From the NCBI GenBank assembly GCA_015767395.1, contig JADWMI010000034.1, positions 1-14,620 on the forward strand: a stretch of 14,620 nt of DNA, given 5' to 3'. This stretch comes from Bacteroidota bacterium. Lineage in GTDB: Bacteria; Bacteroidota; Bacteroidia; Flavobacteriales; Flavobacteriaceae. Shown here in pieces: positions 1,004 to 7,642 of the stretch (position 1 is its first letter; each line of letters opens with the position of its first letter). A program made the translations under genes and the position numbers. The notes below the pieces were generated by a model, which searched no databases, had not been told where the DNA came from, and saw nothing but the letters and a program-made list of their open reading frames with translations.

Positions 1004-1019
1004 TACGTATTTGTACGTA
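1004..1019. promoter_or_regulatory. TACGTA dyad (7-2-7 arrangement) in the nrtA leader
   Basis: The sequence TACGTATTTGTACGTA contains two TACGTA hexamers exactly 10 bp apart. Read as inverted heptamers, it is TACGTAT - TT - GTACGTA. That is the 7-2-7 spacing known for NarL-type response regulators, and TACGTAT agrees with 6 of 7 positions of the NarL heptamer TACYYMT. The same dyad, with one base changed, occurs at 7627-7642. Relative to the visible -7 (987-994) it lies downstream, around the expected start of transcription, where binding would be expected to repress unless a second promoter exists. The function is inferred. Confidence 0.65.
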
Positions 1020-1051
1020 TAAAAATAAAATAACTACTAAAATCAATAATT

Positions 1052-2437
1052 ATGAAAGTAAATTTATTTAAAACAATAGCATTGATTGCCTTTCTAACAT
1101 TAAGCGCATGCGGAAGTTCAGAAAAGAAAAAAGAAGCAGAAGAAACAGCAACACCTGTAGCTACTGAATCTAAAACAAATAAACTTAAAATAGAAAAACC
1201 ACAATTAACTTTTGGTTTTATCAAATTAACAGATATGGCACCTTTGGCCATCGCAAAAGAAAAAGGCTTTTTTGAAGATGAAGGACTGTTTGTATCGGTT
1301 GAAGCACAATCAAACTGGAAAAACATTCTAGACCGTGTAATTGATGGTCAATTAGATGGATCACATATGTTGGCAGGTCAACCAATTGCAGCAGGCGCAG
1401 GCTTTGGGAGACAAGCAGAATTGGTTACAGCCTTTTCAATGGATTTAAATGGTAACGCCATTACTGTTTCAAATGACGTTTGGAACAAAATGAAACCAAA
1501 TATTCCTGTTGATTCTGACGGGAAGCCTGTTCATCCTATTAAAGCTGATGCATTAAAACCAGTTATTGAAGGCTACAAAGCAGATGGAAAAGCATTTAAA
1601 ATGGGAATGGTTTTTCCAGTATCAACACATAATTATGAAATTAGATACTGGTTGGCTGCAGCAGGAATCAACCCTGGAATGTACACTAAAGAAAATATTC
1701 AAGGTCAGATTGATGCTGAAGTATTACTATCTGTAACACCTCCACCACAAATGCCAGCAACTTTAGAAGCCGGAACAATTTACGGTTACTGTGTTGGAGA
1801 ACCTTGGAATCAACAAGCTGTTTTTAAAGGAATTGGCGTTCCAGTTGTTACCAACTATGATATTTGGAAAAACAATCCTGAGAAAGTCTTTGTAATGACT
1901 AAGAAATTTGTTGAAGAAAATCCAAATACTGCAATTGCTGTTACCAAAGCATTGATTAGGGCTGGAAAATGGTTAGATACACCTGGAAACAGAGAAGAAG
2001 CTGTGAAAATTTTGTCAATGTCACAATATGTAGGTGCTGATGAAGTGGTATTAGCTAATTCTATGACTGGAACTTTTGAATTTGAAAAAGGAGACAAAAG
2101 AGATATGCCCGATTTTAACGTATTCTATAGATACAATGCAACGTATCCTTTCTATTCTGACGGTGTTTGGTTTTTAACGCAAATGAGACGTTGGGGACAA
2201 ATTACAGAAGAAAAACCAACAGATTGGTACGATACTAAAATTAAAGATATTTACAGACCTGACATCTGGAAGAAAGCAGCAGAATTACTAGTTGCAGAAG
2301 GTTTGATACCAGCAACAGATATTCCAGAAACAGACGGTTACAAACCAGCAACTACAGAATTTATCGACGGAAAATCATACAACGCAAAAGACCCTATTGG
2401 ATACATCAACAGCTTTAAAATTGGAAACAAAGATTAA
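1052..2437 (+). CDS. nrtA: Nitrate-binding lipoprotein of an ABC importer (NrtA/CmpA family)
   Basis: 461 residues. The N-terminus is a lipoprotein signal with a hydrophobic stretch (5-17) and lipobox LSAC, with the lipid-bearing Cys at 20. A charged Lys/Glu/Thr-rich linker (21-50) precedes the mature binding domain. Family-typical segments are visible: FIKLTDMAPLAIAKEKGFF (56-74), the LDG-S-HML element (101-107), TPPPQM (229-234) and VGEPWN (248-253), all characteristic of the NrtA/CmpA/SsuA-like nitrate/bicarbonate-binding group. It would be anchored in the periplasm and pass substrate to NrtB. Nitrate, rather than bicarbonate or a sulfonate, is inferred from the downstream nitrate reductase. 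It is the first gene of the plus-strand operon nrtABCD plus porin; the next gene starts 33 nt later. The ATG at 1052 is chosen because it places the signal peptide correctly. Confidence 0.9.
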   Translation: MKVNLFKTIALIAFLTLSACGSSEKKKEAEETATPVATESKTNKLKIEKPQLTFGFIKLTDMAPLAIAKEKGFFEDEGLFVSVEAQSNWKNILDRVIDGQLDGSHMLAGQPIAAGAGFGRQAELVTAFSMDLNGNAITVSNDVWNKMKPNIPVDSDGKPVHPIKADALKPVIEGYKADGKAFKMGMVFPVSTHNYEIRYWLAAAGINPGMYTKENIQGQIDAEVLLSVTPPPQMPATLEAGTIYGYCVGEPWNQQAVFKGIGVPVVTNYDIWKNNPEKVFVMTKKFVEENPNTAIAVTKALIRAGKWLDTPGNREEAVKILSMSQYVGADEVVLANSMTGTFEFEKGDKRDMPDFNVFYRYNATYPFYSDGVWFLTQMRRWGQITEEKPTDWYDTKIKDIYRPDIWKKAAELLVAEGLIPATDIPETDGYKPATTEFIDGKSYNAKDPIGYINSFKIGNKD

Positions 2438-2470
2438 TTAAACTTCTCCTCTTGAAATCAAAACGGGGAA

Positions 2471-3601
2471 ATGCGAAAAAGAAAATTATTAGTTCATAAA
2501 ACTTCAAAAATGAGTGATAAATTAATAAAAATAGTACGATTTATTGGATTGGGTTTTTTAGAACCAATAATCCGACTTTCAAGAGGAGAAGAAACTAAAA
2601 AAAATCTCACTGAAATTTTAAAAAAGATAGTAGCTCCATTAGCTTCCATATTAATATTCTTATTGGTTTGGCAAACTGGCTCAACGGCATTATTCAATAC
2701 AGAAGCTGAATACAGAATTGAAAAAGCTTTTAATGAACAAGGTCAAGAAGGGGCTGATGAAATGTTACTTTGTATTGAATCTGGTGATGTAAGTTGCCAG
2801 CCAAATACACTGCCATCACCTTCACAAGTAAAAGCTTCATTTTATTCTTTAATAGAAGATCACAAGGTAATTAGCACTGACAAAAAAGTCTTTAAAGAAA
2901 AAACGGCTGAACTAAATAAACAACGTAAAGCCGAAGGCGAAAAACCCATCACCTACACAGGAAGACCCTCTTTTGTAGACCAAATTATAACAAGTATTAA
3001 AACGGTGTTTGCAGGGTTTTTGTTGGCTATTTTTATAGCTGTTCCTATTGGAGTTGTTATTGGATTGAGCGATACTTTAAAAAGCTCCATCAACTGGCTA
3101 ATTCAAATATTCAAACCTGTTTCACCTGTTGTTTGGCTGCTCTTAGTTTTTATGATTGTAAAAACATTAACCAAAGATTCTGATACAGATACATCTTTCA
3201 TCATCTCTTTTATTAGTGTTGGTTTATGTTCTATGTGGGCAACGTTGGTAAATACTGTTATGGGAGTTTCAACGGTTGATAAAGATATTTTAAATGTTGC
3301 AAAAGTTTTAAAACTTGGCCCAATACAAAAAGTATTTAAAGTGATTTTACCATCATCGTTACCGTTAATATTTACAGGATTAAGAATCACTCTTTCTGTG
3401 GCTTGGATGGTATTAATTGCTATTGAATTATTAGCGCAAAGTCCAGGTCTAGGATCTTTTGTATGGGAAGAATTTCAGAATGGCGCCAACGATTCAAATT
3501 CAAAAATTATTGTTGCCATGTTTGTGATTGGAATCATTGGGTTTTTATTAGACAGAATCATGTTAACCATCCAAAAATACGTGTCTTTCAGCAAAGACTA
3601 A
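2471..3601 (+). CDS. nrtB: Nitrate ABC transporter permease (NrtB)
   Basis: 376 residues. One membrane segment (about 53-69) is followed by a long hydrophilic stretch (about 75-170) and then the binding-protein-dependent permease core with about five further membrane segments (176-372). The core segment from YTGRPSFVDQI through AVPIGVVIGLS (161-200) is typical of NrtB. The coupling-helix region that contacts the ATPases is around LKLGPIQKVFKVILPSSLP. The hydrophilic stretch makes the protein about 100 residues longer than cyanobacterial NrtB. Part of the insertion resembles what I recall of proteobacterial NrtB proteins. The remainder holds two cysteines (C101, C109) that could form a disulfide if, as expected, the segment is periplasmic. 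Start uncertain: Met14 (2510) is an alternative to the ATG at 2471. nrtC follows 21 nt downstream. Confidence 0.9.
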   Translation: MRKRKLLVHKTSKMSDKLIKIVRFIGLGFLEPIIRLSRGEETKKNLTEILKKIVAPLASILIFLLVWQTGSTALFNTEAEYRIEKAFNEQGQEGADEMLLCIESGDVSCQPNTLPSPSQVKASFYSLIEDHKVISTDKKVFKEKTAELNKQRKAEGEKPITYTGRPSFVDQIITSIKTVFAGFLLAIFIAVPIGVVIGLSDTLKSSINWLIQIFKPVSPVVWLLLVFMIVKTLTKDSDTDTSFIISFISVGLCSMWATLVNTVMGVSTVDKDILNVAKVLKLGPIQKVFKVILPSSLPLIFTGLRITLSVAWMVLIAIELLAQSPGLGSFVWEEFQNGANDSNSKIIVAMFVIGIIGFLLDRIMLTIQKYVSFSKD

Positions 3602-6848: not shown

Positions 6849-6856
6849 TACCTTCG
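6849..6856 (+). promoter_or_regulatory. Putative -7 promoter element of the response-regulator gene
   Basis: TACCTTCG matches the Bacteroidota -7 consensus TAnnTTTG except for one T-to-C change. It lies 22 nt before the TTG start, giving a short leader. No -33 TTTG is seen at the expected distance; the TACGTA pair occupies that region. TATATTTC at 6809-6816 is a weaker alternative. Confidence 0.5.
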
Positions 6857-6878
6857 TAATAACAAATAAACCAAACCA

Positions 6879-7568
6879 TTGGAAGATAAAATCAGGATAG
6901 TTTTAGTTGACGATCACGCAATTGTACGTGACGGAATTAAGTATTTATTAGAAGAAGACGAAAACTTAACAATTATTGGAGAAGGATCAAATGGTTTAGA
7001 AGCTATTGAACTTGTTAAAAATCTAAACCCAGATTTATTAATTATTGATGTAAGAATGCCAGAAATGAATGGTATTGAAGCTCTAAAATTAATCAACAGT
7101 ACGCCTACCAATACAAAATCTATCGTTTTATCCATGCATGATTCTGAAGAATACATATTGGAATCTATTGAAGCAAACGCAATGGGATATTTACTTAAAG
7201 ACGCCAGTAAGGCTGAGGTTTTAAAGGCCATCCACACCGTTTACAATGGCGAAAAATATTTTAGCGGCGATATTAGTAATATCATCGTAAATAATCTACT
7301 TAAAAAATCTTCACCTGAAGATTCTTTGAAAACAAATCAAACTCATATTTCTTCGGAAGAAACTTCAAGCAACACCTACAATCTTACAAAAAAAGAAATT
7401 GAAATTCTTCAATTGGTACTTCTTGGAAAAACAAACAAAGAAATTTCTGAAGAATTAAATAAAAGTAAAAGAACCATTGAAACACATCGATTTAATTTGA
7501 TGAAAAAAATGGATGTTAAAAACTTAATTGAACTTTCAAGCAAAGCCAAAGAACAAGGTTTTATTTAA
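6879..7568 (+). CDS. NarL/FixJ-type response regulator (orphan), TTG start
   Basis: 229 residues. The receiver domain (about 5-122) has the acidic pair D11/D12, phospho-acceptor D57 (in LLIIDVRMPEMNG), S85 and K107 (in GYLLKDAS), so it is complete. A Ser/Thr-rich linker (about 142-167) leads to a LuxR-type helix-turn-helix (168-229, LTKKEIEILQLVLLGKTNKEI). The start is TTG at 6879: an in-frame TAA at 6867-6869 closes the frame upstream with no ATG between, and MEDKIRIVLVDDH is a normal start for this family. No histidine kinase is encoded in the window. It lies between the uptake and reductase operons with its own promoter region. It is the natural candidate to bind the TACGTA sites and to activate the locus in response to nitrate or nitrogen status. 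Confidence 0.92.
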   Translation: MEDKIRIVLVDDHAIVRDGIKYLLEEDENLTIIGEGSNGLEAIELVKNLNPDLLIIDVRMPEMNGIEALKLINSTPTNTKSIVLSMHDSEEYILESIEANAMGYLLKDASKAEVLKAIHTVYNGEKYFSGDISNIIVNNLLKKSSPEDSLKTNQTHISSEETSSNTYNLTKKEIEILQLVLLGKTNKEISEELNKSKRTIETHRFNLMKKMDVKNLIELSSKAKEQGFI

Positions 7569-7614
7569 TACTGATCCGCATTTCAAATAACTCAAAATTT
7601 AATTTACAAATAAA

Positions 7615-7642
7615 TACGTATATTACTACGTATTTATACGTA
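7615..7642. promoter_or_regulatory. Triple TACGTA cluster with perfect 7-2-7 dyad upstream of the nitrate reductase
   Basis: TACGTA occurs at 7615-7620, 7627-7632 and 7637-7642 (steps of 12 and 10 bp). 7627-7642 reads TACGTAT - TT - ATACGTA, a perfect inverted repeat with a 2-bp centre, the geometry known for NarL-family binding. It differs by one base from the dyad at 1004-1019. The cluster ends 6 bp before the -7 element at 7649, so a bound protein would replace the missing -33 contact, as expected for an activator. Confidence 0.7.

Follow-up and report, generated by a model that had tools for sequence, protein, structure and literature searches.

Among the known systems closest to the locus treated here, the NarX and NarQ kinases that work with NarL and NarP in enterobacteria carry a PilJ domain, the FixL kinase of the rhizobial FixLJ system receives its input through a haem PAS domain, and NtcA of cyanobacteria is a Crp/Fnr-family regulator of GTA-N8-TAC sites. 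Here we describe a putative operator, together with a two-component system that may control the assimilation of nitrate and nitrite, seen in a 14,620-nucleotide stretch of DNA from a Bacteroidota bacterium of the family Flavobacteriaceae (assembly GCA_015767395.1, contig JADWMI010000034.1, positions 1 to 14,620; hereafter the window). The operator has the form of a dyad of 16 bp, TAMGTA-N4-TACKTA (M = A/C, K = G/T), and the response regulator (RR) encoded at 6879-7568 is the best candidate to bind it.

We consider it likely that the TACGTA clusters of the window are operators of a nitrogen-assimilation regulon under this RR. The operator unit would be the 16-bp dyad, bound by one RR dimer that places one LuxR-type helix-turn-helix (HTH) on each half-site with a FixJ-like DNA preference, and the partner of the RR would be the kinase encoded with nirB-nirD-DUF4202; both the binding and the sign of control are what we infer from the genomes. 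The sites and the RR gene are as follows.

981..986, forward strand: degenerate half-site TACTTA, abutting the nrtA -7 box (TACGTA in the related loci L003, L007, L008 and L011)
987..994, forward strand: predicted nrtA -7 box TATATTTG, flavobacterial consensus TAnnTTTG
1004..1019, forward strand: predicted operator dyad TACGTATTTGTACGTA, upstream of nrtA
6817..6822, forward strand: half-site upstream of the RR gene, predicted operator
6834..6839, forward strand: the other half-site ahead of the RR gene, predicted operator
6879..7568, forward strand: RR with receiver and GerE/LuxR HTH, called start TTG; proposed binder
7615..7620, forward strand: extra half-site at nasC, 12 bp ahead of the dyad, predicted operator
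7627..7642, forward strand: predicted operator dyad TACGTATTTATACGTA, upstream of nasC, conserved in relatives
7649..7656, forward strand: predicted nasC -7 box TATATTTG

The RR belongs to the NarL/FixJ response regulator class, with PF00072 and PF00196 both above cut-off. By NCBIfam it is an orthologue of neither NarL (146 bits against an equivalog cut-off of 250) nor FixJ (84 against 255), and it also falls below cut-off for NarP (114 against 343) and for its best NCBIfam match, MctR (176 against 300). Its closest solved full-length chain is NarL. Its recognition helix, KRTIETHRFNLMKKM, resembles that of FixJ, PRTVEVHRANVMAKM, and differs from that of NarL, ESTVKVHVKHMLKKM; RTIETHRFN of the RR aligns with RTVEVHRAN of FixJ (the queries were the RR orthologues of L012 and L003, whose helices are near-identical). 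The NarX/NarQ-NarL/NarP systems likewise join a PilJ-domain kinase to a NarL/FixJ-family regulator tied to nitrate or nitrite genes, and the present system differs from them in dyad orientation, helix residues, assimilatory genes and phylum. With NtcA it has in common that a single regulator would act on genes for nitrate, for nitrite and, in some of the lineages considered here, for ammonium, although NtcA belongs to the Crp/Fnr family, whereas the Crp-like protein here looks dispensable. It shares with FixJ the LuxR-type HTH with a similar recognition helix, and differs from the FixLJ system in its kinase, usually of the PilJ rather than the haem PAS type, and in its targets, which are genes of nitrate assimilation.

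Published FixJ sites, as quoted in one source, are GTAMGTAG, one of two classes obtained by systematic evolution of ligands by exponential enrichment (SELEX), and the 16-bp TAAGTAATTTCCCTTA at fixK (PMC4999443). TAMGTA lies within the former, and the latter has the same left half and the same 16-bp length as our dyad; the TAMGTA half-site, present in 64/65 of the nirB regions described below, matches this consensus. By this comparison the operator is a predicted FixJ-like site. Its position differs, FixJ footprints at fixK covering -69..-44 and -57..-31 (PMC4999443), against a predicted -26..-11 at nirB. In the open-licence literature, as far as its text was available, we found no described regulator of nitrate assimilation in Bacteroidota and nothing relevant on TACGTA in Bacteroidetes. 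The parts are of known kinds; what would be new is that a kinase of the PilJ type, an operator resembling FixJ sites and joined to the -7 box, and a regulon of assimilatory genes come together in Bacteroidota.

Conservation of the dyad and its candidate binder

The orientation, placement and conservation of the dyad, and its link to RR-bearing genomes irrespective of the FNR-like protein, were computed across relatives at two depths. Among the named loci found, Lutibacter is the best match of the window, whose nasC product gives 93% to L. agarilyticus. A genome scan returned 14 related loci, 11 of them covering the stretch upstream of nasC. The exact dyad stands immediately before nasC in the window and in 10 of these 11; in the eleventh (L009) it instead precedes narK, which sits directly upstream of nasC. 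At nrtA the exact dyad is found at the same place in L001, L008 and L011 and is absent in L003, L007 and L037, while the pair of half-sites before the RR gene, 17 bp from start to start, recurs in 6/6 close Lutibacter sequences (the window, L001, L006, L007, L008 and L011). Ten whole genomes hold 32 exact copies of TACGTA-N4-TACGTA in total, and 31 of them fall by position at nasC, nrtA, narK, nirB/cobA, crp, a porin-glnK-amtB operon or a divergent glnII/AIRS region; the remaining copy is inside an unrelated large open reading frame (G005). The first-pass annotation of the window had called the operator locus-specific, which is too narrow given that the same operator stands at other nitrogen genes elsewhere in some genomes. 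It had also proposed counting the dyad upstream of nas and nrt orthologues; that count was run and gave enrichment rather than a lack of it, the operator recurring in front of nas, nrt, nir and narK orthologues.

At greater depth, 299 genomes were drawn from the flavobacterial family and scored with cuts of E ≤ 1e-50 for the RR, 1e-150 for NirB, 1e-60 for the kinase and 1e-45 for the Crp-like protein. The RR, NirB and the sensor kinase occupy the identical 67 genomes. From 65 of these (G280, at a contig end, and G136 were left out) we took the 400 bp upstream of nirB. TACGTA occurs in 64 of the 65 regions (all but G168) with 181 copies, while the other 23 palindromes of matched composition reach at most 12 each. 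The dyad itself is found in 64 of the 65 (all but G237), with 68 copies against 0.04 expected by shuffling. A wider set of 117 regions upstream of nirB, narK, nrtA, nasC, cobA and the RR gene, from genomes with and without Crp, has the dyad in 88, and as an internal negative control the mid-operon kinase genes, again with and without Crp, have it in 0/14.

The exact palindromic dyad was too noisy as a genome-wide marker, occurring in 143/299 genomes, many with mixed or GC-containing spacers, and an orientation-aware composite of the dyad and the -7 box TAnnTTTG was used in its place. The strict composite is present in 59 of the 67 RR-bearing genomes (129 copies) and in 9 of the 232 without the RR (10 copies), a difference with a Fisher p of ~1e-43 in which shared descent is uncorrected. 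Of the 139 copies, 51 precede nirB and 23 precede crp. The predicted regulon extends to narK, nrtA, nasC, cobA and crp, together with glnK-amtB in several genomes with a PilJ-less kinase.

It is unlikely that the dyad is instead bound by the FNR-like protein of the Crp family encoded at 92-811, as a Crp-type TACGT-N6-ACGTA site. This gene is next door, a 16-bp dyad suits a Crp/Fnr dimer, and TACGT-N6-ACGTA puts a G at the Crp/Fnr contact position; the recognition helix AGTT(E/D/N)EQV.R is conserved in the aligned sequences, four cysteines are invariant in 10/10, and the composite operator stands at the crp promoter in 23 genomes of the family. The distribution of the protein argues otherwise. 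It is found in 49/299 genomes, all among the 67 with the RR (0/49 without it), and was not detected at E ≤ 1e-45 in 18 of the 67. A separate protein search gave 1420 Crp-like relatives, which were not carried into the analysis. In these 18 the dyad is kept before nirB (18/18), narK (10/11), nrtA (6/6), nasC (10/16), the RR gene (5/18) and cobA (10/10; cobA is often divergent from nirB, so these are partly the same sites), and 15 of the 18 have the strict composite. Since the sites persist where Crp was not detected, we conclude that their retention does not depend on the Crp-like protein, which was dropped as the binder; the sites before crp fit crp as a target of the operator, which it probably is. 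The same persistence in genomes without a detected FNR-like protein makes the RR the best candidate binder of the dyad. This part of the first-pass reading, a nitrate-regulon operator with the RR as its probable binder, is supported; its NarL-type code is not.

Several points weigh against assigning the dyad to the RR. None of the 299 genomes has the RR without nirB or nirB without the RR; a link of the motif to the RR is therefore indistinguishable from a link to the pathway, and the kinase is as inseparable as NirB. Another regulator common to all 67 genomes may bind, no search having been aimed at one; we give this a rather low probability, since the RR helix and the dyad both look FixJ-like, and the RR gene is itself often preceded by the dyad or by half-sites. 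The exact dyad is upstream of only 13/32 RR genes (any TACGTA, 22/32) and 19/28 nasC genes, and 8 RR-bearing genomes have no strict composite. The dyad lies in the opposite orientation in 2 of the 117 regions (one nrtA, one narK). EsrB and SsrB have much of the same helix as the RR and score higher than FixJ; the available part of PMC6136808 gave no EsrB binding motif. The genomes share descent, so that counts are not independent events, and Crp was scored as absent by a single E-value cut, with at most nine scored candidates per genome. In the ten whole genomes the RR is present in 10/10 and Crp is missed only in G004, a 2.4-Mb metagenome bin that may be incomplete.

Orientation of the half-sites

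TACGTA is itself palindromic, and any TACGTA-N4-TACGTA therefore has symmetric ends that carry no information on heptamer direction. This applies to both dyads of the window (1004-1019 and 7627-7642), which match their earlier description. Direction can be read from the asymmetric dyads at nirB, which comprise 27 of TAAGTA-N4-TACTTA, 20 of TACGTA-N4-TACTTA and 6 of TAAGTA-N4-TACGTA, with none in the NarL direction (53:0); the half-site is TAMGTA read inwards.

The first-pass annotation had taken the dyads for NarL heptamers, TACYYMT, in the 7-2-7 arrangement. That NarL is the closest solved chain, that the spacing is 16 bp, and that TACTTA agrees with TACYYM (the consensus as given there) are in keeping with such a code, as is the reverse orientation in two of the 117 upstream regions. 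NarL needs that reverse orientation, however, and the 65 nirB regions have it in none of 53 cases; the NarL helix ESTVKVHVKH also differs from KRTIETHRFN. The NarL code is thus very improbable, and we rejected it on the orientation of the dyad.

Promoter placement, sign of control and sensor input

For flavobacteria, the sigma-A -7 box is given as TAnnTTTG at -12..-5 (PMC9723704). In 59 of the 64 dyad-bearing nirB regions the TA that ends the dyad also starts a TAnn[TA]TTG box (offset 14 from the dyad start), and 50 of these 59 flush boxes are the strict TAnnTTTG expected of a -7 box. With the box at -12..-5 and the TA in common, the nirB dyad would lie at about -26..-11. Three placements relative to the -7 box were found: flush (about -26..-11) at nirB and others, about -34..-19 at Lutibacter nasC, and downstream of the box at Lutibacter nrtA and narK. 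In part these offsets come from 50 promoters picked at loci already showing TACGTA, in which the 50/50 presence is no evidence.

Each of the three is beneath RNA polymerase, and the steps from one to another are non-helical; this weakly favours repression. Repression, relieved by the kinase when nitrate or nitrogen need is signalled, is in our view somewhat probable, and activation is a plausible sign of control of lesser probability. A TTG at -33 is not above chance in the nirB promoters (6/59 against 5.8 expected), which would fit an activator and so speaks against repression. One site would have a different geometry. The dyad that separates glnII from an AIRS-domain gene in G010 (L040, 5972-5987) would be centred at about -40 from glnII, unlike the flush promoters.

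The candidate partner kinase is encoded in a nirB-nirD-DUF4202-kinase operon. Domains were scanned in 12 kinases, a set picked to include short ones. PilJ, HisKA_3 and HATPase are present in five (L073, L034, L037, L078 and L190, the last from L. agarilyticus), and PilJ is lacking in the other seven (L004, L038 and L185-L189). Since 62 of the 67 family kinases align full length, from residue 8 or before, with the PilJ-domain kinase L073, the kinase probably senses nitrate or nitrite. For the five short kinases (L185-L189) the alignment to L073 begins only near residue 190.

The composite precedes a BBP2 porin gene in four of these five short-kinase genomes (G012, G246, G189 and G237); glnK and amtB follow BBP2 in three of these stretches (L166, L167 and L168), and in L165 the contig ends after BBP2. 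G010, also with a short kinase, has the exact dyad at the porin-glnK-amtB operon, and no such site is among the matches for G092, the fifth short-kinase genome, or for the short-kinase G004. None of the other 62 genomes has a strict composite placed at a porin-glnK-amtB operon. Their sites are gene-labelled or no more than 1.5 kb from the RR gene; the exceptions are G133, whose one site, beside crp, was placed from its coordinates alone, and G136, whose one site has no gene within 500 bp. The operator at BBP2/glnK-amtB is found in 4/5 genomes with a PilJ-less kinase against 0/62 of the others, over perhaps two or three independent lineages, which suggests that input domain and regulon changed together.

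A bolder and, on balance, rather doubtful extension is that Bacteroidota have a nitrogen-assimilation two-component system of their own, with an operator joined to the -7 box at promoters that have no -33 element, so that a regulator at -26..-11 replaces -33 recognition; after loss of PilJ from the kinase, the same operator would have taken over glnK-amtB, and what was a switch for nitrate would have become one for nitrogen status in general. The analysis provides a concrete operator that can be tested and, for the flavobacterial family, a two-component system as candidate for the control of nitrate and nitrite assimilation; the operator permits regulon prediction from sequence alone. The PilJ kinases and the PilJ-less kinases with glnK-amtB sites form a natural series for how sensor input and regulon co-change, and the predicted promoters show a design with the operator phased to the -7 box.

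TACGTA copies and gene content of the window

TACGTA occurs in the window at 839, 861, 1004, 1014, 6817, 6834, 7615, 7627 and 7637, as annotated before, and nowhere else in it. The earlier expectation of about five copies is too high: 1.34 are expected in the whole window, and the maximum among 200 shuffles is six. All nine are intergenic; for the 891 bases concerned, a first-order model fitted to the same DNA gives an expectation of ~0.4. Higher-order models expect 1.6 to 8.1 and are not a usable test, because when fitted to so little DNA they absorb the repeats themselves. Seven copies lie at the three promoters proposed earlier (1004 and 1014 at nrtA; 6817 and 6834 at the RR gene; 7615, 7627 and 7637 at nasC). 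At 839 and 861 the copies form the opposing arms of a single hairpin with a T run; they are therefore taken for a terminator-like element and rejected as operator copies. Chance or structural DNA, with TACGTA as terminator arms or unselected repeats, holds for these two, and similar inverted repeats behind crp or narK in some relatives and mixed-spacer TACGTA pairs in RR-negative genomes speak for it, but for the promoter copies it is contradicted by the enrichment, the orientation and the phasing to the -7 box seen across 65 genomes and is exceedingly improbable.

The remaining features of the window are the following.

92..811, forward strand: FNR-like Crp/Fnr regulator (crp) with four conserved Cys, likely operator target in relatives
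834..871, forward strand: terminator-like hairpin 3' of crp, whose arms contain the TACGTA copies at 839 and 861; not an operator (by folding)
1052..5322, forward strand: nrtA-B-C-D-type ATP-binding cassette transporter genes, predicted target operon 1
5354..6619, forward strand: outer-membrane porin-like gene (Alginate_exp, by domain match), last of the nrt operon
7694..12643, forward strand: predicted target operon 2, a NasC-type molybdopterin reductase with a fused NirB-like half, followed by a protein that joins a NIR_SIR half and rubredoxin

The hairpin lies just past the crp stop codon and has a 17-bp stem (-19 kcal/mol, z -8.0) followed by the T run. TACGTA-armed inverted repeats with T runs recur in front of nrtA, behind crp in L001 (3260-3286) and L007 (3044-3071) and behind narK in L008 (3239-3265) and L011 (3269-3295), folding having been done for the window repeat only. 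The Crp/Fnr protein has C-x2-C-x4-C and one central Cys, like the FNR iron-sulphur sensor, and scores 64 bits against the FNR family model (cut-off 228).

Target operon 2 encodes an unusual assimilatory enzyme pair. The first protein (7694-11212) joins a nitrate reductase catalytic domain to a NirB-like pyridine-nucleotide/BFD half, and the second (11213-12643) is the NIR_SIR-half/rubredoxin fusion, with weak family matches. The window also contains genes that, by their sequence, are putatively of the siroheme type. The RR is called from a TTG start in 10 of 12 distinct aligned RR sequences; of the other two, one is partial and one is called longer.

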